From Diacronema lutheri (lineage: Eukaryota > Haptophyta > Pavlovophyceae > Pavlovales > Pavlovaceae): a stretch of 64,000 nt of DNA. The DNA is taken from NCBI GenBank assembly GCA_019448385.1, contig JAGTXO010000062.1, positions 124,001 through 188,000 of the forward strand, written 5' to 3'. Positions 40,501-64,000 of the stretch are shown in pieces. The notes beneath the pieces are model-generated. The model did no database searches, was not told where the DNA came from, and saw only the letters and a program-made list of their open reading frames with translations. Positions within the stretch are counted from its first letter, which is position 1. Each line of letters begins with the position of its first letter. The translations under genes and the position numbers were made by a program.

Positions 40501-40558
40501 CCTGTATGAAATATGCCTCGCTGCGCACTTCCTGACCCCATCTGTTGACCCGTCGGAA

Positions 40559-40677: not shown

Positions 40678-40788
40678 GGGCGCACGCAAGTATTTATTGA
40701 AATACACGCACAACGGCATGATCATGAGCAAAGCCACCGCTCTGAACCAGATGCGCGCGCCGCCATCGTGACGAGCCTCGCCGCCGCG

Positions 40789-42312: not shown

Positions 42313-42989
42313 CACAGTCATTGACACGGACCCGGGACCATCTTCTCGGAAATCAGTGAAAAAAAATCTATATACGGCGCGGTCCGGGCTGGTCCGGCCA
42401 GTGTAAGGCTGAGAGTACGACCCGGGTCGTACAATCAAGGGTTAAAAGCCAGCCAATGAGCGCTCGAGGGGTCGGGGCGAGGCTTATGACGAGCCTAGGA
42501 CCGAGACACCCTCCTGACCGGCCGATTTGGAGTAGAATTCGGGGTCGAGCGGGCGCGGCGGACGGAGGGCCCGAGCCGGGCCGACGGAGGGTCCGACCCC
42601 GGAATGCGGGCGACCGGAAGGGCTTGGGTGATTTACGCCTAGTAGAATAGAATGGCGGATTCCGGGGGGGCTCGCAACTGGCATCGCGCAAGCTGAGGCC
42701 CCCTGACTGACCGGACCGCGCCGAGTGCGCGTGCACCCCGTGGAGGGCGCGGCCAGTCGGACACTCTTCGCGACTGAGCTCGCCGCGGCATACCGTGCGC
42801 TGCGCCGGCGCGCTACTTGCCGTTGGCCGAGCTGCGGGTGTTGCGCACCGCCGTGTTGCGCAGCCAGCGGCTGGATGCGCCGGTGGCCGGAACCTTGGCG
42901 CGCTTTGGCTAAGCGACCTCGGCCTGCACAGACTCGAACGCGTGCGTAAACTCGAGGCGTTGCAGGTGGCGAGCACGTGAGTTCGCGTA
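42313..42989. other. Gene-poor segment with an 18-nt perfect palindrome
   Basis: A perfect palindrome gtacgacccgggtcgtac lies at 42415-42432. The local base composition is lower in GC (aaaaaaatctatata at about 42360-42373). Minus-strand open frames continue from the decayed gene to the right but show no recognisable domain. Confidence 0.5.
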
Positions 42990-43086
42990 GGAGGTCTTGT
43001 ACTCGGTGGCCTGACTGTCGACCGACGAGAGCTTGGGCGAGTTCGGCGGCACGTTGGCTCACTTGGGCTCGGTGCGCGGCTCTGCC

Positions 43087-43119
<33 letters not shown>

Positions 43120-43952
43120 CTTCGGACTCGCTGCCCGGCTCTGCCTGTGCGGGCGCGATGCACTCGGACTCGATGCCCGGCTCTGCCTTCGTGGGCGCGG
43201 TCGCGGGCACGGGCGCGCCCTCGACCCCGTCGCGGTTGAAGACATCGAACTCGACGCACACGCCGTGGTCCTTGAAGTCGGTGGCCTCGCTGTCGTTCGC
43301 GTAAGCCTCGGGCGAACTCGCAACGAGCGACGACATCTCGGCGTGGAGCCAGCACATCTCATGCTGCACCGCGTGTTCAGGTTCTCGAGCGCTCCGTTGA
43401 AAGAGTCACTCTCACCGAGGCGCTCGCTGCACCACACCAGATAGCCATCGAGCTTGTGAGCGTGCTCGTGCGCCCGTGCGAGGTCCTTGGAGAGCGCGTC
43501 GGCGCGCGCGCACATGCCGTCGCATGACTTGGCCGGTGTCATGCTGTGCTTCCAAGGCCTGGTGCTCGGCGTTGAGCGTGTCGTGATCCTCGCGAACGAG
43601 CTGCAACCAGCTGCAGCAGCCGCGCGACGCCGCTGTCGCCGACGATGCGCTGGAGCATGTGGCCCATGAGGTGTGCGCGGCACGTGGCGAGCGCCACATT
43701 TTTGCGCAGCAGCGCGAGGATCCGGGCGCCGCGGACGAGCCGGCCCATGCACTTGAGCGCGTAGATTCGGCCGCACATGCACGCGCCGACGACCGAGTCG
43801 GCGGGCCCGCCGTCGAGCCAAAAGTTGGCCTCGGCCGCATCGCGGCGGCGGGCGACGCGCTGAAGGATGCGCACGCGGTAGTGCCGGTCGACGAGCAGCT
43901 CGTCGCCGAAGATCTCGTCGGGCAGCAGCTCGGAGACGTTCTGGGGGTACAT
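42990..43952 (-). pseudogene. Decayed coiled-coil protein gene, family unknown
   Basis: On the minus strand, protein-like sequence starts at an ATG near 43952 (MYPQNVSELLPDEIFGDEL) and continues LLVDRHYRVRILQRVARRRD, FWLDGGPADSVVGACMCG and ILALLRKNVALATCRAHLMG. Helical sequence (VREDHDTLNAEHQALEAQHD; LSKDLARAHEHAHKLDGYLV) and acidic sequence (SSPEAYANDSEATDFKDHGV) follow. These segments lie in different frames without convincing splice sites between them, so the gene looks broken in a few places. Its downstream end is repetitive (gcgggcgcgggc). I do not recognise the family; a mobile-element origin is possible given the neighbourhood. Confidence 0.5.
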
Positions 43953-44367
43953 GCTGTGCGAGCGTGCACGCGACGAGATCTCGTCGGGCGTGCCGTCCGT
44001 TCGTTCAGAGCAGAGCGCGTCGGACCGGCAGACAGACGATGCAGCGCGCGAAGGCACCTGCGGCGCGCGGCGTGGCCTCGCGTGCCGTCACGAAGCCGCC
44101 TGCGCGCACTGCGGAGGCGGCGAGCGCGACGAGGGCGGGCGCGGACGAGGTGCTGAGCGGCGTCACGTACGCGCCCTCGCTCGCCGAGCTCGACGCCGCG
44201 GCGCTGACGATGCGCGCGGCGTACCACACCGACCGCCCCTGAGACGATGCGCGGCGCCCGCGGAGGACTGGTCCGTTGGCGCGCAAACCGTGGGCGAAAG
44301 GGCGCGAAGCCAACGGCCGTCCGCGCACGTTCAAACGCGCGCATACGGGTGGCATCCTCCCACCTTC

Positions 44368-45241
44368 GGCGCCGCTTTCTAAAAGGGTGTAGGGTGTAGG
44401 GTGTAGGATGCAAAACAAGCCCTCCCCACATTTGGGCCCGACGTCATTCCTTCTTCGAAGCCGTGACGTTACTCACATACGAGTACCTTTACTTAGTGTA
44501 GGATGTATCTATTCTCTAGGTATTTGCATAGTGTAGGGTGTAGGATAAGTACGGTTACGAAAGTCCCATAGGGGGGAGAAGGAATGACGCTGTGACGAAA
44601 GAAGGAATGACGTCGGGCCCAAATGTGGGGAGGGCTTGTTTTGCATCCTACACCCTACACCCTACACCCTTTTAGAAAAGCGGCGGCGCCTCAGAGCATG
44701 GCGGCTCGACAGCATGGCGCCTCGACAGCATGGCGTCGTCCAGCGTGGCGTCCAGGATGGCGACTGCGCCCGGGCCGTGACGCCGCGACGTCGTTCGGCT
44801 GCGTCACGGAGGAGCGCCATCCGTGCGCCACGGAGGAGCGGCAGGACCACGACGCGGCGTGACGCTGGACGACGCCATGCTGTATAGGCGCCATGCTGTC
44901 GAGCCGCCATGCTCTGAGGCGCCGCCGCTTTTCAAAAGGGTGTAGGGTGTAGGGTGTAGGATGCAAAACAAGCCCTCCCCACATCTGGGCCCGACGTCAT
45001 TCCTTCTTTCGTCACAGCGTCATTCCTTCACTCCCTGTAGGACTTTCGTAACCGTACTTATCCTACACCCTACACTATGCAAATACTTAGAGAATAGATA
45101 CATCCTACACTAAGTAAAAGTACTCGTATGTGAGTAACGTCACGGCTTCGAAGAAGGAATGACGTCGGGCCCAAATGTGGGGAGGGCTTGTTTTGCATCC
45201 TACACCCTACACCCTACACCCTTTTAGAAAGCGGCGGCGCC
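44368..45241. mobile_element. Nested foldback element: two inverted ~310-bp TIR elements in an ~870-bp hairpin
   Basis: The left arm (about 44368-44745) and right arm (about 44855-45241) are near-identical inverted copies. Each arm contains an element of about 310 nt with its own ~80-nt terminal inverted repeats, ending in three TGTAGGG units and followed by gcaaaacaagccctccccac. The element interior (agtgtaggatgtatctattc and related lines) is AT-rich compared with the window. Between the elements lies a second, GC-rich inverted repeat (catggcggctcgacagcatg). The sequence gcggcggcgcctcagagcat follows both elements in the same orientation. No transposase is present, so the element looks non-autonomous. 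Confidence 0.88.
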
Positions 45242-45335
45242 TCAGAGCATGGCGCCCGCCCGCTCGAGCCGGACCTCCGCGCAGCCGGACTCGCCCCGCC
45301 CCGGGCTGCTCTGGCTGGGCGACGTCGTGCGCGCC

Positions 45336-45623
45336 TCAGAACGCCGCGCTCGCCACGCGCACGTAGCCCTCGTCCGGGTCCGGCTCGGGCGCCGCGTCGC
45401 GCACCGAGCGCGACGCGGCCTCGACGCCCGGCGTTTCGGCACGCGAGGCGACGGATGCCTCGTCCGGCCGGCCCCACGGCAGCTGCAGCTCGAGCTGGCG
45501 CTGGATGATGCGCGGCGTCGCCACGCGCCCGTGCTGCACCTCGCGACGTCGCGCGCGCACGTAGAGCACGATCGCCACCGAGCCGCTGAGGCCCATCATC
45601 GCGCCGAGCAGCACCGAGATTGT
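45336..45623 (-). CDS. Orphan last exon of a single-pass membrane protein
   Basis: The minus-strand frame from about 45623 to the stop at 45336 reads NETTISVLLGAMMGLSGSVA then IVLYVRARRREVQHGRVATP, a clear membrane span with basic cytoplasmic flank, and ends DPDEGYVRVASAAF. An acceptor-like AAGCAG precedes it. The upstream exons are not identified: the open frame continues to 45914 without protein-like sequence and would overlap the helicase-like region. It may be a fragment cut off by the rearranged sequence to the right. Identity unknown. Confidence 0.5.
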   Translation of the reverse strand, partial: TISVLLGAMMGLSGSVAIVLYVRARRREVQHGRVATPRIIQRQLELQLPWGRPDEASVASRAETPGVEAASRSVRDAAPEPDPDEGYVRVASAAF

Positions 45624-45810
45624 GGTCTCATTGTCTGCTTGGGCGCGAACGGAAAACGCGCGAAGGGTGGCGACGAAGATCGTTGGGTTGGGTTGGGCCA
45701 CCGGCTCCCGAGGATTGCTTGTGGCGCTCGACTGACCGTTGGCCCAGCTTTTTTTTTTCTCGAACCTACTGTGGAGCCGCCTGCAGCGTGATCTCCCGCG
45801 CACAACGACC

Positions 45811-48170
45811 ATGGCCGCCATCGACCTGCGCGCCTTCGACGCGGCGCTCGTCAACTGCGAGATCGTGAGCACGCGGCCGGTCAAGCCGAGCGAGCAGGCG
45901 CGCACGGTCGACAAGCTGAGCTACGGGCCGTCGCGCCGCGCGCTCGCCTTCGTCTCGCCGCCCTGCGTCGTCGACTGGCCCGAGCTCACGGGCGACGGCA
46001 ACTTTGGCACCATGTACGGGCCGACGGACGTCGACAAGGCGGCGTACACGGCCGGCGTGACCGACAAGGAGCTGCCGATTGAAGGCGCGCCGCTCGCGCA
46101 GATGGACGCCTACTTTGGCGCCCTGCGCGCCATCGACGATCAGCGCGTCGAGACGGTGCACGCGCGCCAGAAAGAGCTGCTCAACACGCGCGGCCTCTCG
46201 AAGGAGGAGGTGCGCGGCAAGCTCTCGCCCGCCGTCAAGCCCAAGTACGAGGACGACACGCTCGCGCACACGCGGCTGAACATGTCGACGCGCACGTTCA
46301 CGTGGGCGGGCTCCGAGCGCGTCGTGCCGCTCGTCGACGCGCGGCGCGAACCGGTCGACGAGATCCGGCACAGGACGTCTGCGCCATCGCCACGCAGCTC
46401 GACCGCGTCTACACGGGGCTCACGGGCTCGATGTTTGGCACCAAGTGGAACGTGTGCGGGGTCATGCTCCTGAAGCGCGCCGAGCAGCGGCCGCAGCCCG
46501 GCTCGGACGCCTTCGCCTCGTACGGCGTGCCCGCCTGGGCCGACACGTTCGACTCCACGGGGCTGTACGTGCCCGACGAGCGCGAGCGCGCGGCGGCGCT
46601 CGCGGCGGTGGCCGGTCTGCGCACGGCGCGCGCGCCGGCCGGGCCGGGCGGGCGCGAGCTCGCGCGCGCGCAGGGCTACCATCGCGCCGAGCGGGCTGCG
46701 AGCGCGGCGGCGGCGCGCGCGGCGATGGCCGAGGGCGGCCAGCAGTGCGCGCTCCACGGCGCGGTCGTCAAATCGGCGCTGCGCGGCGTGGGCAATCGGC
46801 TGCATCTTTGCGACGCGCCGGGCGGAACGGGCAAGACGTTCGTCGAGCGCGCCATTATCGCCGCCGTGCGCGCGGATGGGCACGCGGTCGTCGTGGGCGC
46901 GTCCTCGGGCGTCGCCGCCACGCTGCTGCCCGACGGCCGCACCTTCCACTTGACCTTCAAGGTGCCCGGCGGTGCCGACTCCGACGGGCAAGCCGTTCAA
47001 TGGCGTGCCGCGCTCCGAGCGCGGGCGCTCCCTGGCCGCCGCGGCGGCTGGTCGTGTGGGACGAGGCGCCGATGCAGACGCGGTGCCACCTCGACTCGCC
47101 TGATCGGTGTTTGCGCGACGTGACGGGCGTCGACGAGCGCTTCGGCGGCGAGACGCTGCTGCTCGCCGGCGACTTTCGCCAGTGCTTGCCGGTGGTGCGG
47201 CGCGGCTCGCGCGCGCAGATCGTGCGCTCCTGCCTCAAGTACTCGGCGCCGTGGCAGCACGATCGGCAGCACGCCTTGGTCGAGAACGTTCGCGCCTCGA
47301 GCGCGGCGCGCGACACGGGCGACGCGCTCGGCGCGGGCGAGTGGGCGGAGCTGCTGCGCAGCCCCGGCGACGGCGCCGTTCCCGCGGCGGTGCCGGCGGC
47401 CGGGGCCATGCCCGGCGCATTCCCGCTCGATCCCGTGCAGCTGCCCGAGGCCGTCGGCGGCGTCCCCATCCGCGTGGGCTCGGCATACCCGACGGAGCTC
47501 GTGACGACTTTGTCCACGGCGCGACGTGTTGGACCGACGACGGCTCGCTGTGCGACCGCGCGGTGCTCTGCGCCAAGCAGACGGACGTGGCGCGGATCAA
47601 CTGGCTGGCGATCGGCCGCTTCCCGGGCGCGGCGGCGAGGTGCGCGTCGGCGGACGAGCTGGCGCGACGACGGGGCGGGCAAGCAGATTGCGCTGGCGTC
47701 GGTCGAATTCCTCGACTCGCTCGAGCACGCGCAGATGCCGCACCGCGTCCTCGACCTGAAGCCCGGGATGGTGGTGATGCTGCCGCGCAACCTCTCGCCC
47801 GGCGAGGGGCTGTGCGGCGGCACGCGGCTGATCGTGCGCGGCGTGCGCGCCGGCGGCCGGCTGCTCGAGTGCGCACGCCCCGGCGCGGCCGCCGGGCGCG
47901 ACAGCACCGTGCTCGTCGCGCGTGTCGACCACCACTCGCCCGACGACGGCACGTTCGCGCTTGTGCGGATGCGCCGCCAGTTCCCCGGTGCGGCCGGCGT
48001 AACGAGGCGCAGGGGCAAGCGCTCGGGTGCGCGGGCGTGTGGCTCGCCGAGCCGTGCTTCACGCACGGCCAGCTCCACGTGGCCGCTTCGCGCGTCGGGC
48101 ACACGTCGCGCGTCCGCTTTGCGCTCGGCGCGGACCTCGTGACGCGCAGCGTCGTCTTCAAAGAGGTGCT
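45811..48170 (+). mobile_element. Broken PIF1/Helitron-type helicase with an upstream unidentified domain
   Basis: The leading part (from MAAIDLRAFDAALVNCEIVS to about KWNVCGVMLLKRA) is about 230 residues of unidentified globular sequence; a single-strand DNA-binding role is only a guess. The helicase part follows, with Walker A LCDAPGGTGKTFVERA, VVVGASSGVAATLLPDGRTF, Walker B VVWDEAPMQ, LLLAGDFRQCLPVV, MPHRVLDLKPGMVVMLPRNL, LCGGTRLIVRGV and AQGQALGCAGVWLAEPCFTH-GQLHVAASRV near the end. This order matches PIF1-family helicases carried by Helitrons and related large elements. Coding sequence is spread over several frames with about four or five breaks, so it looks dead. No Rep nuclease was found. 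Confidence 0.75.
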
Positions 48171-49715
48171 CCGCGCGGTCAGCGGTGGCGAGGCGGCGGC
48201 GGCGGCGCTCGCCGCGGCCGCCGTCGCCGCCGCGCGCGAATGCGCGGCGGCGGCGCGCGGTGGCGGCGGGCGCGGACGGCGCGCGCGGCGCCGGCGGCGG
48301 GCGGCGCGCTGGCGGCGGGCGCGCCGCCGGCGCGCGGTGCTGGCCAGCACCCGCCGGCGCGACGCCCGCCGCGCCGCTCGCGCCGACGCGCAGCCGTCGG
48401 GTGCTCGCCAGCACCGCGCGCCGCGCGACCGGCCCGCGTACCTGCGCGCCCTTCTAGGGCGCGCAGGGCGGCGCCAATGCGGCCGGCGCGCAGGGGCCTC
48501 ACGCTGGCGCGCTGCCCGCCGCCGCGTGGGTCGCCGCTGCGCGCGTGCCGTCGGCGCTGCCGCCGCCCGGCGTCGCGCTCGCGCCGCAGCCGCAGCCGCC
48601 GCCGCCGCCGTCGCCGCCGCCTGCCGCCTGCCGGCAAGCTGGGCAAGTGCGCAGCGGCGGCGACGGCGGTGCGCGACCCGGCGAGCAGGCGGCGCGCCGC
48701 CGAGCCGGGGGCGGGCTCCGTGGGCGACGAGGCTCGCCCGCCACTCGCACTACTCGCGCGCCAAGTGCGCACAACGCGCCCCCCCCCCCCCCCCCCCCCA
48801 CCCCACCCCCCGATGAATTTAATGCTCATACCATGGCGTCGCGCCACGGCAGTACGCCCGTGGCCCCGGCGGCCAGCCTCGCGCCGCTACGCCGTGTCGT
48901 CGCGGCCGGCGCACACAGCGAACTGTGTTTCCGCGGCACATGCCCGGCTGCTCGCGCGCTGCAAGCTTGCCGAACTGCTCGCGCTGGAATGGCGCGTTGC
49001 GGGCGTGCCCGCGCACCGCGCGTGTGCCATGCGCGTTCCGGGAGCGCCGCGCCGCGCGCCAAAGCGGCGCGCGGCGGACGTGCGGCCTCGGGCCGAAGAG
49101 GGGCCGGCGCGACCGGCCGCGAGGCGGGCGCAGACGCTCGGCGTGCCGGTCGATGCGTCGTCCAAATCCGCGTCGGGCGGATGCGCGCCTGGGCCGGCGC
49201 TGCGTGCAGTCGGCGGGGCCCGGCCACGCGCTCGGGCGTAACGTTCGCGCCTGTTCGGCCGAGGCGCACTCGCCGTCCCCTCGCGCCGGCAACGTGCGTG
49301 CGGGCCAGCACGCAGGCAGCGTACGATGCCACGGCAGCGGCGAGCGCGTCCCCGCCGGTGTGCCGCTCGGCGCCCCGTCACGCGCAACGTGCGCGCCGCC
49401 CGCTGCATGCGCACGCATACGCGCGCTGGCAGCGTGCGCAAAATTGCCCGGGCAAGATCGTCCCGCGCTCGCGCCGCCGACGCATCATTCCATGTGTCCG
49501 TTTCGGCATCTGCCACCATCCACCAGCCCTCGAAAGCCGGCTTGCGCGTGGGCGCCCGTCCGGTGCGAGAAGCGGCTCGCGTCCTCGCGCGGGGCGCCTC
49601 CGCGCCAGGCGCCCGGCGCGCGCTCGTCTTGCCGCGCCACCACGCTGATCTGCGCCCAACCCTCGCTCGCCAATTCCCCCGTCGTCCCTGCTGCGCAGCC
49701 CGCAACAGCGCGCGC
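48171..49715. other. Low-complexity region between helicase remnant and protease gene
   Basis: 48180-48780 is Arg/Ala-coding GC repeat sequence ending in a poly-C run (about 48778-48800). A plus-strand frame around 48900-49240 (VSAAHARLLARCKLAELLAL) looks protein-like and may be part of another decayed gene. Nothing is assigned. Confidence 0.4.
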
Positions 49716-51351
49716 ATGGCGCGTGCACGGCGCGGCGCCTTGAGCAAGTTTTACGTCGTCGGTCGGCAGCCTGTGGAAGACGCGTTTGACGGCCCGATGT
49801 GGCCGGTGAGAGTGCCCGGCGTGCCGCGTGGTGAGCGCCTGCACGGCTTGCCGGGCTCGGCGCGCGCCCAGCCAGCCTCCCTCCATCCCGCCGCAAACCG
49901 TGCGTGCGCACCCCGCACACCCGGCGCTGCGCGGCGCGGCGCAGGCGCGAAAAACGAGGGCAGCGCGTGCTACACGACCGTCCTTATGCAATCGCTCTTC
50001 GCCCTGAACATGCTCCGTGCGATGCTTCGCTCCGCTTCGCGCCGTGCCAACAGCGTCGAGAGGGCGCGTTTTCGGGACTTTGGCACGCTGATCGAGGACA
50101 CCAGGGCGCCGACACGGCTGTGTCTTGTGTCCGTCATCGACGTCATCTCGGGCCGTGGCGCGCGAAGGACGCCGCAGGATGCCGCTGAGTTCTTCCGGTT
50201 GCTGCTCGGCCGAGTGCCCGGGCTCGCTGCGGCCTTTGAAGCCGACACACGCGTCGGGCCAGTGCTCGAGCAGATCGCCGTGCCTTCAGAGGCCGGCGAG
50301 GGCATCGCCGTACTCGTCAGCGTCGGCGGCGATGCGGCGCGCGCGCTTGCACACGCTCTGGGGGGCGCCGCTGGGCCGCCGCGGGATCGCCACACGAACG
50401 CGGGCCACTCGGGCGTGCTCACGCCAGCCAGCATTGCTGTCGAGGCGCCGCGCACGACGCGCGGCAATGGCTCGCAGTGCAAGAACAACCGCGCGCTCGT
50501 GTGCGCGCCGCGGCTGCTGCTCGGCGGGCGCGACCACCTCCCCGTCGCCGGCGTGGTGCACGTGGGCGAGGGGCCGATGAGCGGGCACCTTGTCGCCATC
50601 GTGCTCCGCAACGAGGCTTGGTTTCCGTGCGACGACTACAACGTGCGGCGGCGCGCACGGTCGCTCGGTGCCGCGACCGGCGGTCGAGCGCAGCCGCGAC
50701 CGCCCCGTCCTCCCGCGCGGCACGCGCGCGTGGCCTGAAAGCTCGCGCGCGCGCCTGCCGCACGCACGCGCGTTGCCCGCGCAGATCTACAACGTGCCTG
50801 AGTCCGACGCGCTGGCGTGGGCAAGTGGTGCGAGCATGCTCGTTCACAGCCGGCTCGACGTGGAGCCGTTGGACCCGGCGCTGGGCTCAGCGTCACCGCC
50901 GTCGGCCGCATCGCCTGCGTGGCCGAGCTCGGAGCCCGACGCGCCGACCTTGCCGGCAGCCTGGCCGCGGGTGCGGCAGATGGCAGCGGTGCCAACAGAT
51001 GCGACGATCGGCATCGCGGAGACGGCTGCAGACATCTCTACGGCGGCGATCGGCCCAGCTGCGTGCGAGGCCCGCCAAGTTGTCTCCGTGACGCGCGCAT
51101 TGCCAACAGCGGTGAGTGCGTCCTCGTCTCCGGCGGCCGCTGTGCCCCCCCCCCCCCCCCCCCCCACACACACACAACTCTCCCTACCTTCTTCCTCCTT
51201 TCGCACCTCGCACGCGCACGCCGTCCGCTGTCCGCTGTCCGCGGCCCAAATTGCCTTGCGGAAGCCGAGCAGGCAGAGCCCTGCTTGGATGGCTCCAGCG
51301 CGCATCTTGTGGATGGCGACGCTGTGGGCGAGCACGGACGCTCAAATGTGA
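49716..51351 (+). CDS. USP-like cysteine protease (C19 fold), probably two exons
   Basis: Suggested exons 49716-50642 and 50785-51351. The start MARARRGALSKFYVVGRQPV is tentative; the frame is open further upstream. Ubiquitin-specific-protease landmarks: the Cys box KNEGSACYTTVLMQSLF (family NxGNTCYMNSxLQxLF), QDAAEFFRLLLGRVPGL (family QQDAxEF), NNRALVCAPRLLLGG and the His box GPMSGHLVAIVLRNEAWFPC-DDYNV. The zinc-finger insertion of typical USPs is absent, so the catalytic core is small. The second exon begins IYNVPESDALAWASGASMLV and repeats the TACAACGTGC of the exon 1 end. The C-terminal ~140 residues are low-complexity and the true 3' end may differ. It would cleave ubiquitin or ubiquitin-like conjugates if active. 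It neighbours mobile-element debris and the giant C48-like gene. Confidence 0.6.
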
Positions 51352-51449
51352 CCAGTGGCGCGCACGTGCACGTGCGCTAACTGGACGTCGAGCGTGTGCG
51401 CCTTGTCCGCACGTGTGCACTCACGTGCGTCTGCGGCGATCTGCCCGGC

Positions 51450-51990
51450 GTAGTAGTCCGCGCGCGCGGGAGCCGCGTCGGCAGTAGGAGCAGGATAACG
51501 TACTTGCGCCTGACGAGGACGGCGAGAAGTGCGGCTTTTCGCTCGGGGTCTACCATGCCGCCGAGGTTGGCGCTGGCGCGCGTGAGGCAGTCGGAGCGCG
51601 CTGGGCCCGGGTTGAAGGCCTCACCCCGGGGGACGGGAGGATTCAAGGCGCCGAGCCGCTGCGGGTGCGGCGGGAGGCCCCGGGCGGGTGTGCTAATGCG
51701 GCTCGATGGCCGCCTGCCGGGGGGGGGGGGGGGGGGGGGGGGGGAGGGGGGGGGGGGGGGGGGGGGGGGGGCGTTGGGCCGCCCGCGGAAACGGAGGTGA
51801 GCGTGTGGGAGCGGCGCGCGTCGGCGCGCGCGGCTGGCGTGCAGCACGGATAAGTCTTGTGTGGACTTCGCGGGGCGGATCCCGGTGCAGGGATCGCCGA
51901 CGTAGGCCGCGAGCGCGAGCAGGGCGGGGATGAAGACGGATGATGGGGTTGGGGCCAAGGCCGCCGCACCCGCAGCTATCACGGTGGCAG
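51450..51990 (-). mobile_element. LINE-type retrotransposon fragment, start of the APE-like endonuclease
   Basis: On the minus strand a hydrophobic stretch (ALTVAVAATVIAAGAAALAP) and a poly-C interruption are followed by RGEAFNPGPARSD and then ASANLGGMVDPERKAALLAV-LVRRKYVILLL. NPGP before an SAN-x-GL-x-DPxKRxALLxxL-x-RxxYDVxLLQET-like block is the usual beginning of ORF2 in several non-LTR families, where NPGP is part of a 2A-like peptide. The endonuclease breaks off near 51450 and no reverse transcriptase is found, so this is a short fragment. A block further upstream (WATVPLVTDEAAKLAILAAL, about 52640-52720) may belong to the same element. Confidence 0.45.
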
Positions 51991-52173
51991 CGACCGCCAC
52001 GGTCAGTGCGAGGCTCGCGTGGCCGCTGCGCGGGCAGCTCGCCCGCCAGGTCCAGGAGGGCCGGCCTGCGGCCTCAGTGCCCAGCGTTGGGCATGTCAGC
52101 GTCTGCGTCTGCGGGCCCGCCACTGCGATGGCGCATTGAGCCTGGCGCACCAAAACGCAATCGGTCCGCCGAT

Positions 52174-52210
<37 letters not shown>

Positions 52211-54113
52211 CGAGGCGTGCGCGGGGGCTTGGGGTGGGCTCCGGGTGCCGGCGCTGTGCCAGCGGCGGGCTTGGTTGACGCCGTCTCGCCGGGGCCCTTG
52301 CGCCTTGCGGCGCGAGCGTCGCGGAGGGGCGTCGGCTGCGCTGGCTCCGCGTCGGCGGTGGCGTGGGGCAGGCTCTTGTGGAGGGCGGAGCGCTCGCGCA
52401 CGAGTCGGTTGCCAAGGCGGGCTGTCTGCGTGCCGTTGGGCTGCGCTTGGGCAGGTAGGACCTGCGGCCTCGGGGGCGGGCGGGTTTTCGTGTTGGGCCA
52501 GGCGGCAACGCGCACCGGCCGTGTTCGCGGCCGGCAGGCGGACGTCCGCAGCGGGGCGGAGAATGCGGGTGAAGCGCTTGCACGGGCGCGGTTCGCACCT
52601 GGCGGCCAGGCGATCACGAACCGTTGGGTCGCCCGGCTGTTTGGTGGAGCCGAGGGCAGCAAGGATAGCGAGCTTGGCCGCCTCATCGGTGACGAGCGGC
52701 ACTGTTGCCCAGCTCTGTACCTCGAAGCCCTGGATGTGCAGGCGTCGGGGAAGTTCCCGGCAGCGTCGCCTGCGTCCGTCGAGAGGCGGACCGAAGTCGC
52801 GCCCGTGCCCCCGTTGGCGACACCGAGCTCTCGCTCGTTCACACCGGCCCGCCGACGCGGGCGCGTGGTGCGCGCGCGTTGGGTGCGTGTCTGCCTCGAG
52901 CAGCGTGCCCAGTCGCAGTGTGGGCGCGTGTCCGTCTGCCTCAAAACGCCACGTGGAGGGGAAGGCGCGGGGCGGGCTCGCCGAGGAGGTGCCGCCGCTC
53001 GCTGCCACCCGGCGCGGGCTCGGGGCAGCCGTCTTCGGGTGCCGCGCTCTTCGCGCCATGCACGAACGTTCCGCCGCGCTCGCAGCGCGCGAGCGCACAC
53101 ACAGAGCGCGCGGCGACCCCGGCGGGGGCAGTGCGTCCCGGTGGCACTCGCGGGCGCGCGCCTGGCCTGGGCGCAGCTGGGCGCGTTGCCGCCCGCGCAG
53201 CGAGCCGCCCGCGCGCCTCGCCGCGCGCGCGCTTCGTCGCACGCGTGCGCCCTGCATGCACGCGCACAGCGCGCGGCGGCTCGGCGCAGTGCAAGGCAGA
53301 GCGTGCTGCAACGGTTGCGAGGGCGCGCACGCGCGGCGCGGCGCGCCCCTGTGTGGTCGCCTGCGCGCGGCGCGTGGTCCGGACGCAGCTCGGTGGCGTG
53401 ATGCCGTTCGTGCAACACAGTGCGCGTGAGAGCCGCACGTGCACACCTGCAGTGCAACGCGGCATTGCGCGCGTTGCGTGGGCGGAGCGCGGCTGGATGT
53501 GCTTGAGGTCGCGCAGCATGCCGCGCGCCGCGCGCTGTGCGGCGCAGCGAGTCGGCCATGCCCCTGGTCCTCGTCTCCGGGGGGGGGGGGGGGGTGGTGG
53601 TGGCAACCAGGATCCGCCAGCGCGTGGTGGGCGCCGTCCAACTCCCAGCCAGGATGCGCCCCGTTCTTCCCCGACACTCTCCGTCCAAACCCGCCGCCCA
53701 GCCTGCCGCCGCACCCGCCGCCAACGCCGCCGCGCACCCATCCGCCGAGCTCACCTCGCGCGCGCTCGCGCTCACGCTGCGCGACGAGGCTGCGCAGGCC
53801 GGCGCGCGGCCGTGCAGAGCAGCGCAGGCCGGCGCGCGGCCGCGCGCGCGCGCTCACGTTGCGGCCGCGCAGCGAGCTTTCGCCGCGTCGCAGCCCCTCC
53901 GAGCAGCCACGATGCACGCCCCCGGAGGACGTTGGCCGCGCTCGGAGGCCGCGCTCGGGCGCGCAAAGAGAGGCGGCGCGGGCAAACGAGTAGGCTCGGC
54001 GCGCTGGCGGGTCCTGGTTGTGGGAGAGCGGGGCATTCTCCAGGGCATCATGTAAATTCTCCCAAGTATCATCCGGGCCGCCATCCGGACACTGACGTGC
54101 CCACAGTCTGCAG
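51991..54113. other. Unassigned low-complexity stretch with poly-G/C tracts
   Basis: Long open frames exist on both strands (for example 51377-54241 minus and 52019-53401 plus), but most are Arg/Ala/Pro-rich shadows of GC-rich sequence. Poly-G runs at 51721-51770, 52178-52210 and 53579-53595 look like intron fillers. A plus-strand segment (ITNRWVARLFGGAEGSKDSE) and the overlapping minus segment both look weakly protein-like; I cannot decide the strand. Confidence 0.4.
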
Positions 54114-57100
54114 ATGGAGGACTCCGTGAAGGACGCTTTGCCCGGCGGGCGGGGCGGCTCGGACAGTTTCTCGCTGGCCCTCAGCACCATTCTGTCGCCG
54201 GGAGATACCCACCCCCACGTGGTCCCATCCACTTGCCTCATCGCCCTGCTGCGTTACGCGGATTTCGGCACGAGCAGGGTTAGGGTGGGCGACACGGGGT
54301 GCTCGCAGCATGCGCTCAAGGTGGCGCTGCGCAACCTGCGCAAAGCATGCGCGGATGCGGACCGGTTTGGGCAGGTGCTCGTGGTCGTGCTACCGCTCTG
54401 CCTCCGCGCGTCCAGCGGCCTCGTGCACTGGACGGCGGCGTACCTGCTCCTCGCGCCGCCCGCGCAGCGCGGCGCGCCGCCCGGCGCCGCGCTCGCCCTG
54501 CTCGCCGATTCGCGCACCTTGGGCAACGGCGAATCGGCGTACGCCACGGCGGCCGGCGTGCTCATCAAGAAGCTTGCGCAGCGCATCGGCAGAACAGCGC
54601 CGCCCATCGATGCCTTCAAGGCGCCCCCGCAGAGTGGGGCCGCGTGTTGCTTCGCCGCGGCAACAGTCGCGGCCGAGGTCGTGGCGAGCGCATCGACGCT
54701 CTACGGCCGCCGCGCGAGTGTCCTTGTCGACATCAAGAAGGCTTTGGACGCGCGCCTCGCGCGCCTCACGACGGCCGCGTACGAGGAGACCCGCGCGCGC
54801 ACGCTCCGCGCCGCCATCGGCGCTCTGCTCGGCGACCGCGCCAGGCGCTTCGGCCCGTTCACCCGCGAGGCCGCGCGGCTCGCCGAGGCCGCGCGGCTCG
54901 CCGAGGCGTGCGATGCCAGTGTCGGCGGATCCGCGCCCGACGGGCTGCTGCAGGCCGTCGAGGCGGCGCTGCGCGCGCCCGACGACCGCATCGCACGCAC
55001 GGCCGCGCTCGACGCGCTCACGGGCGCTGCAGGCCGCGCGCTGTCGACGGCGGCCAGGCCGCGCGGCGCGGCGGCGCCAAGGCCGCCGTCGCGAGCGCCA
55101 CCGCCGCGTGCGCCGCAGCGGCGCGCCGCCTCGGCGTGGGGGCCCCGACCATTCAGCAGCCTCGGCGGGGGCGAGGGCGACGGGGACGATGGCGACGCCA
55201 CCACCGCTGACGACGGGGAGGGCGCGGAGGACGGGGACGACGACCCCGCGGGCGCGGCGGCTGCGGCGGTGGCGACGGGCACGGCGGCGACGAGCGCGGT
55301 GGCGGCGGGCGCGGCACCAACCTCGCCGGCGGCGGCGGACGGCGGTGGCTCGGCGCCGCTCGAACGCCGCTGCGTCTACACTGCGCCTGATGAGGGCGAC
55401 GCGGACGCGCGCGTGTACGACGCCAAGGACCCCGAGCAGCTAAAAGCGGGCAGGGCGCGGCTACGGGCGAACAGCGGGCGCGCGCCCGCCGTGGTCGACA
55501 CGCTTTTCGCGCACGCGACGGGCACGATCGTCACGCGGCAGCGCACGGAGGGCGTGACCGGCGCGGGCATGCACCACCTCGCCGCCCCGACGCAGGGCGC
55601 GGGGTACGGTACCGTCGTGCGGGCCGAGCTGGGCGAGCCCGGCTTCGCGGGGACGACATGGCACATGACGTCGGGCGTGGAGAACCAGCCGCGCGCGGTA
55701 CGAGCGGCCGCGCGCGCGTACGCGCACGACGGCTGGGGCGGCGTGTACAATGCGCACGAGGACTTTGCCGCCTTCGAGGGCTTGCCGCGGCTCGCCGCGC
55801 CCGAATCGCTCGCGGCCATCGCCGGCGGGTCGGCGGACGCGGTGTTCTGCTGGCGGTCCGGCCGGTCCGTCATCGGCGAGGTGACGACGGTTCACTTCAA
55901 TGGCGACCGCGCCGCCGCCATCGACCACGCGCGGGCGCTGCGCGTCAGGCCCGATTGGCGCTCGCAGCCCAGGATCTACGAGGCGGCGTGCGGCGCGGAG
56001 GGCACGGTGCTGCTCGTGTGGGTCGTGCCCGACCGTCACAAGAACCCGCGGCTGGACTGGGCGCCGATTCTCGTCGTGATCCACCTGCCCGCCGACCCCG
56101 ACTGGCTCGCGCGCGCCACGCCGGCGATCGCGAAGGCGCGGCGCGAGGTCGAGGACGGACGCGCGCGCGCGGAGGCGCGCGGCGTGCCGCAGCACCTCGC
56201 CTACACGCTGAGCCCACGCTTCCGAGGCACCGCGCCGCGCGGAGCCGCGCGCGTGCCGCCGCGCCTCGGCGCGAGCGACGCGCGCGAGGCGCGCGCGCTC
56301 GCGGCGCTCGAGCCGGCGCTCATGTTCGCGCCGGCCTGGCGGCGCGCGGTGCGCGCGGCGAGCCGCGCCCCCGGCAGTGGCGCCGCGGCCGTCGAGCGCG
56401 CGCTCGCGCGCCTGCACAACGCGCTCGAGCCCGATGACGAGAGCGCGCCCGAGTCGACGCGCGTCGCGCCGCTCGCCGCCGCGCTCGAGCAGTCGGCGGG
56501 CTGGCCGGCGGGCACGGCGCGCATGGCGGCAAGCGTGACCAAGGGCCCCGGCGTCGGAGATGGCGCAGGTGGCGACGAAGTGACCAAAGTGGAGGAAACG
56601 GCGAAGACGAGCGGCGACGGCTGCACCGGCACGCCTCCTCTGCGCCCGGCCGCGCGCGCGGCCGGCGCGGCGGACGACGGAGGGGCGGCGGTCGTGGCGG
56701 GCGTCGAGGGCGAGCGCGACGCACTCGCCAAGACGGGTGCCGGCGGCTGCGACGACGACGCTCGCGAGCCGCTGTCGGCCGGCAAGCCCGGCGCACTCGC
56801 CGCCGCGGCGACCGTCGGGGGTCTCGGCGAGCTCGTCGGCAGCCTATGCGCGTGGCTGGCGCGCGGCGCGGCTGGCGGCGCCATCGCGGCCATCTCCCCC
56901 GGGACGGCCGCGCGCGGAGCAAACGGCACGCCGCAGCGCGCCGAGCCGCCGGCCGCCGGCGATCCCGTCGCTCCGCACGCGCGCGTCGCCGCTGCGGCGC
57001 CCTTGGCGGGCAGCGCGGCGGCGCCGTCGTCGGCCGCGCGCGACGCGCAGCGCGGCGTCGCGGGATTCGACGCGGCCGCGCACGCGCACGCGCGCGACGG

Positions 57101-60100
57101 CAGGCGGGCGGCACGGCGGATGCGCGAGCAGGAGGGGGCGGTGCACAGGGCCTTCCGCATGTCCCTCTGGCGCGACGCGACGTTTGTCGAGTTCGTTGAG
57201 AAGCTGCGCCCCGACGGCGGCGCGCAGCTGCTCGCGCGCGAGCCCACGCGGCGCGCGGCGGCGGTGCTGTGCGAGCTCGCGCGCGGCCGCGACGGCGCGA
57301 GCGGCGCGGCCGGGCTGCTGCACGAGATGAGAGCCGCCGATGCGCGCGCGCGCGAGGCCGCCAAAGCGGCGGAGGCAGCGCAGCTTGCGCACGGGACGCT
57401 GCGCATCGTGGCAACCGTGGCGCTGGGCGGTGCGGTCTTCGCCGGCATGTCAGCGCTGGTCGTTGCTTGCGCGGCGCGCACGGCGACCGGTGCGCTTTTT
57501 GGGGCCCGCCGCCCGCGGGCGGCCGCGCGCGGAGCCGACGACGCGCTCGGCACGCTGCAGCGCGCCAAGCCGCCGCCCGCCGACAAGGGCAAGCGCAGGC
57601 GCGCCAGAGCCAACGACGACCCCGTCGACGCGGCGCGCAAGGCCGTGGGCAAGGCGGAGGGCAACTGCCGCAAGGCAGCCCGCCGGCTGCACCTCGCTGC
57701 ACTGGGCGAGGAGGAGGCGCAGCAGCGCGTGCTCGACGCCGAGGCGGCGGAGCAGCTGGCGCGCTCGCGCGAGCCGGCCGGCGGCTGGGTAGGCAGCGCG
57801 CGCGCGCGCGCGCGCGCGCGCCCCGCCGCGCGCGCGCCCGTCGATTGGCGTGCGCGCAGCGCAGAACGGCGCGCCAGCTCCGTCACCTGCGCGCCGCCGC
57901 GCCCGTGCCCCTCGCGCGCAGGGGCGCCCTGCGGACCTGCGGCTGCAACAGGCGCACTTTGGCATGCGCGAAGATGCCGACGCGGATGTGCGCCGCGCGC
58001 ACGAGGCGCTGCGCCGGGCGAGAGAGGGTGTGGCGTGCGCCAAGGCCAGCGTGCGGCAGATGGAGGCGGCGTTGCTCAACGCGACGCGCTGCGCCACCGC
58101 GGTGCTCGCGCCGCGTGGCGTGCCGGAGGGTGACGAGCAGGCCGCGGCGAGAGAGCAGGCGGCGCTGGACCGGGAGGCGCCGCCGGCCGCGCAACGCGCG
58201 GCGCCGACGGCGCGCTCGCCCTCGGAGCCGCCGTCCGAGTGGGGCCCGCCAGCGGTCGGCCGGCGCCCGACGCCGCGTGCACTGTCGCACGCCGCGGGTC
58301 GCGGGGACGACAACCCGTTTGCGCCGCTCGCAACCGTCAGCGGCGATTGGTCGCCCACGCCGAGCTCGCGCTCGCCGTCCTCGCCGCCGCGGCAGCCGCC
58401 GTCCGACCGCCGCAGCGCGCAGCGTCGCAGCGCGCGCGCGCGGCCGCCGAGGCCGACCGTTTCGCCCGAGGACGCGCTCGCAGCCGAGCGCCAGGCGCGC
58501 GCGCTGTCGGAGCAGGCGGAGCAGAGGCGCGCCAAAAAGGCCGCCGCCAAGGCCGCGCGCCGCGCCGCGCGCGCCGCCGACAAGCGGACGGCGCGCGTCG
58601 TCCACGCGTGCGTAAGCGCCGCCTTGCGGCGCGTCTGCACGAGCGTCGCCACGGGCACGCCGCTCGCCGTGCTCCGCGAGCGCGCCGAGGGGCCGCGCGC
58701 GCCGAAGCCCGCGCCCGCGCCGCCACGCCGCGCAGCGGACGGCGGCCGCGCGCTCCGCCACGCGCGCCGTGCGGCCGCCGCGGCGGCGGAGCGCGAGGCG
58801 GCGGTGGCGGCCGACGCCGACGAGCGGTTCGAGCGGCAGCCCTCCGCCGCCCGGTTCGACGGCGGCGATGGCGGCGGAGGCGGCCACGTCGAGGCGAGCG
58901 CGCGACCGCGCGCCGGCGAGGCCGGCGAGGCTGGCGCGCACGGCGCGCCTGGCGCAGCGGGGACCCCGGCGGCGTCGCTCGCGTCGCGCAGCCCGTGTGA
59001 TGCGCGCCGCACGGCACGCCTCCCGCACGCACGCGCCGCAGCCACCTGCGCACGCAACGGCGGCTGGGGTGGCAACGTCGGCGGCGACGTGTGCGGCGGT
59101 TGTTTCGGCGGCGGCGGCGTCCGTCGCGACGCCTGCGGCGGCGGCGACGCCACCTGCGGCTGCGGCGATGGCGGCGTCGGTGCTGGCGCTGGCGAGGCCC
59201 CTGCACACGGTGCGCCGGCGCGCGCGACGGCGTCGCGCTTGCTGCGCTTGCTCGGCGCGCCACGCGCCGTGCTCGGTGCGATGGCGCACGCCGCGGCCGT
59301 GTTGGCGCGCGGCGTGGCCGCAGCCGTCGCTGGCGTGCGCGCCGCCGCGCGCGCCGTGCGGCGCGCGCGCCGCCGAGCGCCTCGCGCGCGCCGCACGGCT
59401 GCGCGGCGGGCTCGCGGCCCGCCGATGCGCGACGTCGACGGCGCCCTGCGGCCCTCGCCGTCCTGGTTGCGCACACGCCTCGTCTGCGGCCGGCGCCTCG
59501 CGCCTCTGCGCCGCGCGGGCGCGCGCCCGCCGCCCGCACACGCCGCGCCGAGTTCCCGCGCGCGCGCTGCGCAACCCGACAGCGACGCGCCGGCGTGCGC
59601 GCCGCGGCGCTCGGCGCCTGTCGGTGCGCCGCCGCGCGCGCGTGGCCTGCGCGCGGCGCGCGCACGGCGCTTCCTCGACGTCGCCGGCCGCGCGGCGCGG
59701 AGCGCGCGCCTCGGCGCGCGCATCACGCGCCAGCGCACGCCGGGTTCGCCATCGGAGCCCTGCACGGCCGAGAGCGGCGACGGCGCGGGCGCCGGCGGCG
59801 TCGGCGCGGCGGCGCCTGGCGCGGCGACGATGCGCGCCACCGGCGCGCGCGCAGCGCGCGCTGCGGCGGCGGCGGTCGGTGGCGCCTCGCGTCTCGCGCG
59901 CCGCGCGATGGCAAGCGCCGCCGCCGCTGCCACCTCCATCGCCGGCGCTGCCGCCTCCACCGTCGCCGCCGCCGCCGTTGCCATCGGCGCGGCCGTCACG
60001 TCACCGGCGTTCGCCGCGGCGCGCGGCATGGCGGCCGCATGCGTCGCTGCCTGCGCCCGCCCCACCGCCGCGCAGGCGGCCGCGTCGCGCGCGCTCGGCG

Positions 60101-62369
60101 CGCTCTTCGTGCTCGTCGACGCGGCCGACGCGGCGGGCGACAGCGACGCCGCGCTCGGCGCGCTCGCGGCCGCGGTCGACGCGACGGAGCTGCGCCCGCC
60201 GCCGGCCTTTTGGCGCGCGGGCCGCGCCGCGGCGTACGCACCGCGTCCGCCGCCCCTCGACTCGGCGCGGCCGCGCTACAACCGGCGCGCGCGCGCACCT
60301 AGCCCTCCCGTCGCGGCCGCGCGGCGCAATCTCGCGCGCGCGGTGCGCGAGCTCACGCGCGCCGCGCGCGCTGAGCGCGAGCGCGCGCCGGCGCCGCGCG
60401 GCGCGCGCGGCGGCGTGCTCCACGCGCTGCGCGCGTCGCTCCCCGTGCACGCGCGTGCCGCGCTCGGCACGGACGCGGAGCTGCGCGCGGACATCGCCGC
60501 GTTCGCGCGCGCGCGCCGCGAGCTGCACAGCCTCACCGACGCCGAGGTGGCGGCGCTCGCGCGCCCGGACGGGCCGCCGCTGCCCGTGCGGCTCGCGTGC
60601 ACGGCGGTCGCGCGCGCGCGCGGCGTGACCGTGCTGCTCGACATCGTGCCGCGCGGCGGCGGCGCGCCCGAGCGGCTCGTGTGCCGCGCCCGTCGCCGCG
60701 GCGCCGCCACGCGCACGCCACGGCCGACAGCCGCCGTTATCGCGCGCGCGCCTTGCATAGCGGCGCGCGTTGGCCACACTGAGCCGGCGCGCGCGTGCGC
60801 GGGCGGATCGATCGGGGTCGCGCGCCTCCGTTCAGCGCGCCGCCGCTCTTGGCGTGGGGCGCGGCTCGACGTGCACACCCGCGAGCGGCTGGCCACACCG
60901 GTGCCAGGCCACGTCGTGGCCTGCGCCGCCGCCTCGGCCATCGGCGCGTGCGTCGCTCGCGCGCGGCTTGGGCTTGCACGGCTGGCGCGCGCGTGGCCCT
61001 GCGCCTCCGCTCCACTGGCCGCTGCTGCTGTCGCCTTCGCGCCTGCCGCCGACGGTGTTTTCTGCGCCCCGCTGGGCGCTCCTGCATCCGCCTTCGCGCC
61101 TGCCGCCGACGGTGTTTTCCCCGCCGCACTAGCCGCTGCTGCATCCGCCTTCGCGCCTGCCGCCGATTTTCCCGCCCCACTAGTTGCTCCTGCATTCGCC
61201 TCCGCGCCTGCCACCGACGGCGTTTTCCCCGCCCCACTAGCCGCTGCCGCTGCCGCGTCCGCGCCCGCCGCCGCGGGCGCGTCTTCCGCCCCACCAGCCA
61301 TCGCCGCCGCGCCCGCCGCCAACGCGCGCACCGCCAACGTGCCCGTTGCCAACGAGGCTACCGCCACCGAACCAGCCGCCCTTGAGCTTCCCCTCCAACC
61401 CGCCAACTCGGCGCTGCTTGCGTGGGCGGGCGACGCGGCTGCGCGCCGGCTGGCCGCCGCCGCCGCGAGCGCCGGCCTCCCGCAGGCAGAGCTGGAGCGC
61501 ATCGCCAGCGGCGACATGCTCGCCTCAACCGTCGACGCGTGCTGCGAGGTCGTGCTGCGCGTGCACGGGCAGGCCGGCGGCGGGCATGTCTGCCACGTGC
61601 CGCTCGCCGCGCAACCCGCGGTGTTTCAGGACGACGCCGAGCGCGCCGCGCTGCTGCACCGCCTGCGCAGCGAGGCGACAACGCAGGCTGTCATCGGCGT
61701 GTGGAGCCCGTCGGACGAGCGCGGCGGCGCGGGCGGTGACGACGGCGCGCAGCTCGCCTCCGGCCATTTCACCGCGTTGCGCCTTGTGCGCGTCGCGCGC
61801 GCGGGCGAGCATCGCTACGACGCGGTGCTCGTCGACACGCTCGCGTCGCCCTGCAGGCAGGCGCTCATGCTCGCCAAGGCGATAACTGCCACGCTGCACG
61901 CGGCGGGTCTCGACATTTCGCGCGTGCGCCGCGCGCTGCTGCTCAACGAGGCGGCGCAGCGTGGCGCGACGTGCGGCCTCGCGATAGTGGGCGCGCTCAA
62001 CGACGCGCTCGCCGCGGCGGGCTGCTCGTCCGCGCCGCGCACGTTCAGCGTGGCGGACATGTACGCTGTCGGCGAGCGCCTCCGCGTCGCGCTGACCGGC
62101 GCGGCCAGCGATCGTGCGCCGGGCGGCGTCTGCGCGGTCACGAGCGCGGTGCGTGGCGGGGGCAGCCCCGATCGCGCCGAAACGCCGCCGCAGACGCGCG
62201 GCGCCAAGGCCGCCGCTGGCGTCACCGCCGCCGCCACCGCCGCCGCCACGCCGCCGCCGCCCGCGCTGGGCGCCGCCGCCGCCGCCACCGCCGCCGCCGC
62301 CGCTGCTGCCGCCGCCGTGGCCGCGCCGCCACCGCCGCCACCGCCGCCGCCGGCCGGCGACGCGGGCGA

Positions 62370-62445
<76 letters not shown>

Positions 62446-64000
62446 GCCGCGCGCACGTTCTTGAAGCTCGCGCCCAGGGCGCGCGCGGCCGCCTCGGCGC
62501 GTGAGGCGTTGCGCGCCGCGTGTGCGCGCGCGGACGCGGCGGCGTCGTCACACGCGTCGGCGCCGCACGCGCCCGCCGGTGCGCGCCGCCGGCGGCGCGC
62601 GGGCGCAGGCGAGCTGGCGCTCGCGGCTGCGCGCGCGCTCGCCTCGACGGAGCACGGCGATTTGACGGACGACGCGCTCGAGGCCGCCGTCGAGCAGGAG
62701 CTGGGCGACGAGCGCGGCCAACTGCTGCTGTGCACGCGGGGCGCAGCGGCGCAAAGGCCCGCGCTTTGCCGGCTCCTGAAGCACGCGTGCGCGTCGGCGC
62801 GCGCGGCGAAGCGCGCGCAATTCACGGTGTTCGTCGTGCGCGCGGCCACGCGCGGCGAGCGGGGGGGCGCCGCCGCGAGGCGCGTGGACTCGGTGGTCGA
62901 GCTGTCGTGCGCGCTGCACGAGAAGGCGGGCGCGCTCGGCGGCCTCCAGCGCGTCTGTGTGCGTGGCTTCGCCCTCGAGCGCCGCCGGACACTCGACGCT
63001 GGCGCCGAGGCCGGCGCGTCCGCCATCGGCCAGGACGAGCAGGTCGAGGCAGAGGCGGGCGAGGCGTGCGTCGCCGGCGTGACGATGGCCAAGCAGCTGC
63101 GTCAGTTTGCCGAGCAAGCTGCCCGCGACGACGTGCTCTTCCACGTCGCCGTGTCCGAGGCCGACGCCCACGCCCGGCTGGCGCGCGTTGCGGGTGACGA
63201 TGTCGGCGCGTACAGCGTCGTGCTCGCAGTCGCCGGGCTCGTCTGGCTGGCCAAGGCCGACGAGGTTGCGCCGGCGGCCGCCCAGCCCGCCGCCGTGCCG
63301 CCCGCCGCCCCGCCTGCTGCCGCCACGTCCGCCGACGCCGAGCGCGACGCCTCGCCTTCCGACCGCCTGCGCGCGCTGACGCTCGCCGTGCGAGTCGCGC
63401 TCGCGCGCGGCGTGCTGCGCCACCTCCTCGCCGACGCGTCGCCGGGCGCGTCCGCGACCGCTGGCGGTAGTTGCGCGACGCCCGTCGAGGCGGCCACGTC
63501 CGCCGCCGCGCCGCCCGCCACGGGCGTCGTGACGAGTGGCGTTGCGGCGGGCGCTGTGGCGGCCGCACCGGCTGCTGCGGGCGGTGCGATGGCGGGTGCA
63601 TCGCCCATCACGCGGCCGGCGAAGCGCGCGCGGCGCACGCTCACCGCCGCTCCAGCCGCCTCGGCCGTTGCGGCCGCTGGAGGCGCACGCGCGGGCGCAC
63701 GCGGCGCGGCCGGCGCGCCTCGCGCGCGCGCCGCGCGCGCGCCGGCCGAGTACGTCTGGCTTGCCATCGCGCGCCGGATGCTGGCGGCGCGACACGCGGC
63801 GGCCGCGGGCGGCGACTTTGTCGCGTCGTGCGTCGCCGCGATGCAGGCCGAGTACGGCGACGGCTGTGCCGTCGTCGTCGGCGACGCGCCTGATGACGCC
63901 TTGGTCGAGGCTGCGGCGGCGGCGCTGCTCGAGGGCAAGCACGCGGCGGTGAGCCTCGGCTGCGTCGACCGGCCGGCGGTGCTCGTCGTGCAGCGCGCCG
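54114..64000 (+). CDS. Giant protein with two Ulp1-like (C48) cysteine-protease domains, open at right edge
   Basis: Exon 1 (54114-57788) and exon 2 (57922 to the window end) join in phase across a 133-nt GTAGGC...GCAG intron. At least 3,251 codons have no stop. The start ATG follows an in-frame TGA. Domain 1, residues about 40-185, has LVHWTAAYLL (His105), LADSRTLGN (Asp132) and APPQSGAACCFAAA (Gln173, Cys178/179). Domain 2, residues about 2420-2590, has SGHFTALRLV (His2507), AVLVDTLASP (Asp2530) and NEAAQRGATCGLAIV (Gln2571, Cys2576). Spacings fit the H-D-Q-C array of Ulp1/SENP proteases. An unassigned globular part (FCWRSGRSVIGEVTTVHFNG; VLLVWVVPDRHKN) and a membrane-like segment (LRIVATVALGGAVFAGMSAL) lie in exon 1. 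The rest is Ala/Arg-rich and partly coiled coil. It may belong to a large mobile or virus-derived element; it looks whole as far as seen. Confidence 0.72.
57789..57921 (+). other. Intron of the giant gene
   Basis: Donor TGG|GTAGGC and acceptor CGCGCAG|GGGCGC, 133 nt, with a long alternating CG run (about 57798-57822). It shifts frame exactly as needed to join PAGGW to GRPADLRLQQAHFGMRED and continue the coiled-coil-like sequence. Confidence 0.75.
62225..62455 (+). repeat. (GCC)n tract coding poly-Ala with poly-Pro patches in the giant gene
   Basis: GCC repeats with occasional ACC and CCG codons make an Ala run of about 30 residues (62371-62452), preceded by a Pro run. It stays in the same open frame. 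The other frames code long Pro and Arg runs, which are shadows. Confidence 0.9.

Follow-up and report, generated by a model that had tools for sequence, protein, structure and literature searches.

A giant gene with two protease-like signatures, probably the main gene of a recently active DNA transposon in Diacronema lutheri

The giant gene lies in a multicopy unit with fixed ends

We analysed a stretch of 64,000 nucleotides from the haptophyte Diacronema lutheri (the window; positions 124001-188000 of contig JAGTXO010000062.1, here C81) together with the genome it comes from, searched as 103 contigs and 43,492,796 bases. On the plus strand, an ATG at 54114 opens a giant gene carrying two signatures that recall Ulp1-type proteases. 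This is probably the main gene of a giant DNA transposon that has been active recently in D. lutheri, a proposal that takes in several putative steps discussed below. It is based on a unit of about 31 kb with fixed ends, present in well over 100 dispersed and nearly identical copies. A preliminary description of the window had placed the gene beside mobile-element debris; the mobile setting was borne out, while the gene appears to be the element's own main gene and no mere neighbour.

Within the window, the element occupies 42368..64000 (plus strand), similarity to the copies on contigs C9 and C33 beginning at 42367-42368. On the same contig it extends for about another 9.42 kb beyond the window, as far as C81:197424-197427, and similarity to the same two copies ends at the extended coordinate 73424-73427, giving a total of about 31.06 kb. 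When short patterns for the two ends were searched genome-wide with at most two mismatches, 248 left and 228 right matches were obtained, and reversed control patterns gave 0. Left-right pairing of the first 100 ends listed for each side gave 65 pairs. Their lengths fell into classes, with 29 pairs near 31.0 kb, 10 near 21.5 kb, nine at 29.1-29.4 kb and seven at 26.0-26.9 kb, the remaining 10 having other lengths from 12.6 to 35.9 kb. The end matches and the multicopy unit agree with one earlier suggestion, that the gene belongs to a giant mobile element. A second suggestion, a host scaffold for a SUMO or ubiquitin-like protease, was rejected because the gene sits in a multicopy unit with fixed ends.

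The copies are very similar to each other. The DNA of the first signature region (unit 1) was 100% identical over 871 bases in the 40 copies scored of 179 candidates, and that of the second (unit 2) was at least 97% identical, with no stop inside the match, in the 150 scored of 227 candidates. Over the pieces compared, the window copy was 99.1-99.7% identical to those on C9 and C33 and 98.2-99.4% identical to those on C1, C27 and C4.

The left terminus (42367..42432, plus strand) reads STATATAS-GGCGCGGTCCGG..., and an 18-bp palindrome lies some 46 bp further in; a near-palindrome is also found near the right end. We looked for a terminal inverted repeat between the left and right ends and found none. 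At the 41 usable left junctions, the TATATA columns were held in 39-41 copies, and the preceding base was C in 31, G in eight and T in two. At the right junctions, the TATAC columns were held in 38-40 of 40. For 38 pairs with both flanks available, no duplication was seen beyond the common TATA(C), the same result as with random re-pairing, apart from one exception of 13 bp. A short duplication could nevertheless be concealed within the common TATA, and the junctions would fit either a fixed TATA duplication or recombination inside TATA.

The giant gene runs past the window and its frame is largely kept

The giant gene is read in two overlapping frames, the first open over 54096-58133 and the second from 57793 through the window end. 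Several GT-AG introns would join them in phase, starting at 57789 and ending at 57864, 57921 or 57951, with a few other donors. With the candidate intron of 76 nt (57789..57864), the first exon would cover 54114..57788, its end being one choice among several GT-AG pairs, and the second would cover 57865..64000 and continue beyond the window. The preliminary description had given the gene at least 3,251 codons and one short intron. The count is reproduced with an intron of 57789-57921; the intron itself is one of several that are possible in phase, and the gene is longer than was stated. That the frame is open at the window edge was confirmed, since in the rightwards extended contig it runs on to 69969 in the window copy. 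In the C9 copy, 4,513 codons are open, from 57793 to about 71335.

Over the 3,755 codons of 57865-69128, 22 stops were expected from composition and 0 were observed, so the giant frame is no accident of high GC. The GC bias by codon position is evident over most of 54-71 kb and is weak in places between 58 and 61 kb. In the window copy, small length changes relative to other copies shift frames, and copies free of such changes exist. Across 54114-69000, the length changes in the C9, C33, C1 and C4 copies were multiples of three or compensated to one. Unlike these four of the five copies compared, the copy on C27, which lies at the end of its contig, shows many changes of a single base, and this speaks against maintenance of the frame. 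Among the 150 scored copies of unit 2, the surrounding frame has 4,400 codons or more in 104 and fewer than 2,600 in 18.

In one copy of the 21.4 kb class, the unit 1 exon is missing and the N-terminal part is a different one; unit 1 is therefore not common to all elements. This copy (C4:1055330-1076790) has both ends and the last 12 kb in common with the longer ones, but its giant gene starts differently. Divergence is far higher in its unit 2 region than elsewhere, a pattern that recombination between lineages would leave.

Two protease-like signatures in one frame

Frame reading confirmed that the two signatures share one giant frame and are separated by about 2,400 residues. The unit 1 signature (HW..DS..Q..CC) is encoded at 54426..54650 and unit 2 at 61381..62130, both on the plus strand, the four residues of unit 2 being H129, D152, Q193 and C198 of its stretch. 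Both units thus have His, Asp, Gln and Cys in the order of Peptidase C48 (Ulp1). The matching spacing noted at first sight is real, with 41 residues from Asp to Gln and five from Gln to Cys in both, and His to Asp at 27 in unit 1 and 23 in unit 2.

For the shuffle and self-comparison tests, we used a composite protein, with the first exon taken from the window and the rest from the open frame of the C9 copy. The strict pattern H[WF]..D[ST]..Q..C matched twice in the giant protein and in 0 of 300 shuffles, which upholds the earlier view that chance is an unlikely origin. A loose H..D..Q..C pattern also matched twice; it is no evidence alone, because shuffled proteins gave 0.84 matches each. An exact-spacing pattern matched unit 1 only, the His-Asp range used being too narrow for unit 2.

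C48 membership of both units could not be shown from the sequence, and the signatures may instead have arisen by chance or be decayed motifs of a protein rich in alanine and arginine, a substantial possibility against which we lean. In its favour, the Pfam scan of the window frames gave no C48 match to either unit, and the C48 profile (PF02902) had nine matches genome-wide, with 0 on C81 and 0 at the listed unit 2 copies. Sequence searches of the PDB with units 1 and 2 gave nothing relevant. Alignment with hhalign to three host C48 proteins (five host places were fetched) gave near-zero probability with very thin profiles. AlphaFold models of the two units were of low confidence, with a predicted local distance difference test score (pLDDT) of 41.7 for unit 1 and 40.4 for unit 2; at this level they speak neither for nor against the C48 fold that the preliminary description had named as a check. 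Foldseek, used on this unit 2 model, gave 0 matches at E 0.001 or better, and the two units resembled each other with a z of 0.8 only.

Against it stand the strict signature found twice and the equal Asp-Gln and Gln-Cys spacing. All four residues of unit 2 are also retained in an 82%-identical version from the 21.4 kb class, where the ratio of nonsynonymous to synonymous changes (dN/dS) is 0.46. When seven protein stretches chosen by eye were compared (21 pairs), two pairs reached a z of about 4, and one of these (z 4.0) paired unit 1 with a stretch near 68.6 kb. In the low-confidence model of unit 2 (pLDDT 40.4), His lies near a strand start, Asp at the end of the next strand and Cys at a helix start, a placement resembling the arrangement of these residues in C48 enzymes.

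Other genes and domains of the element

The element holds, besides the giant frame with its protease-like signatures, frames for a Pif1 helicase and a ubiquitin-hydrolase (UCH) domain, a RecE/YqaJ-like exonuclease domain, a chromodomain and a C-terminus of the Fanzor/TnpB type. The helicase frames (45736..48142, plus strand) comprise an unassigned N-terminal part, PIF1 (E 1.5e-24) and Pif1_2B (E 5.5e-13) in the Pfam scan, with changes of frame along the way and putative introns. In the C9 copy, the best PDB match of this helicase was Helraiser (E 8.6e-7). The UCH domain frame follows at 49242..50738 on the plus strand (PF00443, E 4.3e-8).

The exonuclease and chromatin domains belong to the part of the giant frame beyond the window. 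The first matched phrog_434 with E 3e-16, Pfam YqaJ staying under its cut-off (E 0.005); the Chromo domain was found with E 1.5e-12 and has solved relatives from 1.6e-9. In the frame after the giant one, near the right end, the zinc/RuvC region typical of a Fanzor/TnpB C-terminus was recognised in the C9 copy by Cas12f1-like_TNB (PF07282; E 1.4e-6, 28.7 bits, for a cut-off of 26.3 bits), and the best PDB match of the region was Cas12f1, with an E of 0.19 only. A Glu stands six residues ahead of a Cys (E-PYTSMH-C), as does the repositioned Glu of Fanzors in the account excerpted from PMC10711439.

A possible minus-strand gene with overlapping frames (42484..44087) gave no family in the four frames scanned. 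An AT-richer near-palindrome of about 870 bp (44367..45239), with 91% identity when gaps are allowed and 62% without, may serve as an origin or promoter. The NCBIfam scan of three frames and the Rfam and tRNA scans gave no lead.

How the element may move, and alternative explanations

The giant product could be a polyprotein, whose papain/Ulp1-like units would either cut it into pieces or strip SUMO or ubiquitin off host factors. As read from the sequence, self-processing, which the preliminary description had offered as one option, appears more plausible because the same frame holds the RecE/YqaJ-like domain and the chromodomain, with the Fanzor-type part in the next frame. This last part may be joined to the giant product through a putative intron. 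Helicase and exonuclease would replicate or process the element's DNA, and the chromodomain would steer the element to chromatin. Insertion at TATA(C)-like sites would be made by a recombinase or transposase of unrecognised type, for which the giant gene and the minus-strand gene are candidates. Finally, the Fanzor might cleave the allele that lacks the element, and repair of the break would then copy the element into it.

Several results weigh against the element being an active transposon of this kind. Concerning the mover, searches for recombinases and Rep proteins work exon by exon and a subset of the element's frames was scanned; in these frames no transposase was recognised. The serine recombinase profile had 0 matches genome-wide (10 of 14 control genomes were positive), and an IS607-like assignment failed. 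Tyrosine recombinases had 16 matches genome-wide, none on C81 and none in the scanned frames, so a Crypton assignment failed as well. Helitron Rep (PF14214) was matched once in the genome, on C63 and not on C81, and no HUH Rep was found in the element. On C17, C34 and C35, some tyrosine recombinase matches lie about 4-14 kb outside element ends, possibly by chance.

Concerning the sites and the nuclease, no empty site was found, the flanking repeat used proving to be another short dispersed repeat. The right-terminal 100-250 nt, where a Fanzor guide RNA was sought by sequence folding only, did not fold significantly as RNA (z -0.23 to -1.86). The frame of the window copy itself scored far under the TNB cut-off (E 2.3). 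RuvC1 has DPN (DPNMG) and not the DPG of Fanzors, and the first zinc pair is CSMP and not CxxC, the second being CPAC, so that the pair of CxxC motifs is incomplete.

Concerning selection, the single-nucleotide polymorphisms (SNPs) among six copies over 61.3-69 kb, the noisy C27 copy included, showed no excess at third positions (44, 40 and 37). Taken alone, these SNPs show no selection, since an even spread over codon positions is expected for very young copies. In the comparison with a copy from the 21.4 kb class, dN/dS was 0.46 for the 300 codons surrounding unit 2 and 0.69 for 3,279 codons in all, and it exceeded 1 in two windows with few changes. Purifying selection, raised in the preliminary description as a check on the gene, thus had a mixed outcome.

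A Helitron, that is a rolling-circle transposon with a diverged Rep, would account for the Pif1 helicase with Helraiser as its best solved relative. It would also account for the lack of inverted repeats and of a duplication specific to each pair, and for the 18-bp palindrome near the left end with its near-palindromic counterpart near the right one. Helitrons end in the consensus TC...CTRR. The ends of the element do not follow it and the single Rep match of the genome lies on another contig, which makes this explanation improbable.

We give a similarly small chance to an endogenous virus, either Polinton-like or of the giant-virus type, despite the size of the element and its exonuclease, helicase and protease-like content. 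Polinton-like elements are common in protists, as stated in an excerpt of PMC10120064. Here, there are no inverted repeats, and no capsid, polymerase or integrase was found in the scanned frames, most minus-strand and alternative frames lying outside that scan. The search for viral relatives proposed earlier was made by four viral_contigs scans and gave none.

Finally, a subtelomeric duplication or assembly artefact in place of a transposon is very hard to reconcile with the data. Several contigs do start or stop at the element's right terminus, but telomere repeats were found at the start of C15, the end of C29 and the start of C30, and it is at their other ends that C15 and C29 break off at or within the element. 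The flanks differ among most of the 40 copies fetched, and the length of the element exceeds the read N50 (the length above which reads hold half of the bases), which can explain the breaks.

Genome context

A giant transposon of this kind would be a sizeable part of the genome. The 63 pairs that the first 100 ends listed for each side form on contigs C1-C41 already span 1.78 Mb, or 4.1% of the assembly. This points to a recent burst of 21-31 kb elements in a genome described as compact and streamlined. The genome paper gives 22.9% repeats, chiefly long terminal repeat elements and long interspersed nuclear elements, and the sections of it available to us hold no word starting with "transpos" or "Helitron" (PMC8379373).

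The right-end pattern lies within about 10 bases of the starts of contigs C1, C5, C6, C10 and C12 and of the ends of C3, C8, C13, C14, C15, C32 and C33. The element may account for places where the assembly breaks, because the read N50, 23.458 kb in the same paper (PMC8379373), is shorter than this repeat. A link of the element to telomeres was considered and rejected, the telomere repeats at the C15 start and the C29 end being away from the opposite, element-bearing ends.

Other features of the window and genome were recorded. A minus-strand frame (39280-42441) adjoins the left end of the element and has, by eye, stretches like 3-hydroxyacyl-CoA dehydrogenase and RING. An 80-bp stretch occurs twice at 100% identity (22950-23029 and 40599-40678). 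About 81 copies of a 24-bp tandem unit with 96% matches fill 12127-14081, with an AT skew of 0.86 over 12001-14000, and CCGCA is repeated about 55 times at 32979-33253. A separate short dispersed repeat ending in ...GTCGTTAG and then TAT has 503 matches with at most three mismatches; two fetched copies are flanked by direct repeats of 10-15 bp, like retroposons.

Comparison with known systems

We found no description of this element in the part of the literature that our search covered. The element shares with Helitrons such as Helraiser its Pif1-type helicase and the lack of inverted repeats and of a pair-specific duplication; it differs in that no HUH Rep was found, in its ends and in its far longer frame. 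It is like the Polinton-like viruses of the excerpt of PMC10120064 in size and in some domain types, and unlike them in lacking inverted repeats and, in the scanned frames, a capsid, polymerase or integrase. The giant KDZ and EnSpm DNA transposons of Ectocarpus, as a section of PMC12477816 presents them, exceed 10 kb, some 30 kb, and take a large share of the genome. Our element resembles them in size and genome share; that account groups them with DDE transposons that have inverted repeats, and neither feature was seen here.

A bolder reading is a new class of giant DNA transposon that has no known transposase, in which a self-cleaving polyprotein of about 6,000 residues would release an exonuclease, a chromatin reader and a Fanzor, with insertion at TATA followed by copying. 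We think this rather unlikely; Fanzors in transposons and giant algal transposons are already known, which leaves a lesser chance for a new class. With the Fanzor-bearing transposons of eukaryotes, some of which are reported to reach hundreds of copies (PMC3627910 and PMC10711439), the element has in common that it is mobile and that a TnpB-family nuclease lies close to its right end. Unlike those, it measures 31 kb and has no recognised transposase and no inverted repeats, and its nuclease lies beside, and is perhaps joined to, a giant multi-domain frame. With about 100 copies having a long open frame, and with a Fanzor-type nuclease adjoining a chromodomain and protease-like units, the element could help to show what Fanzors do for the transposons that carry them.

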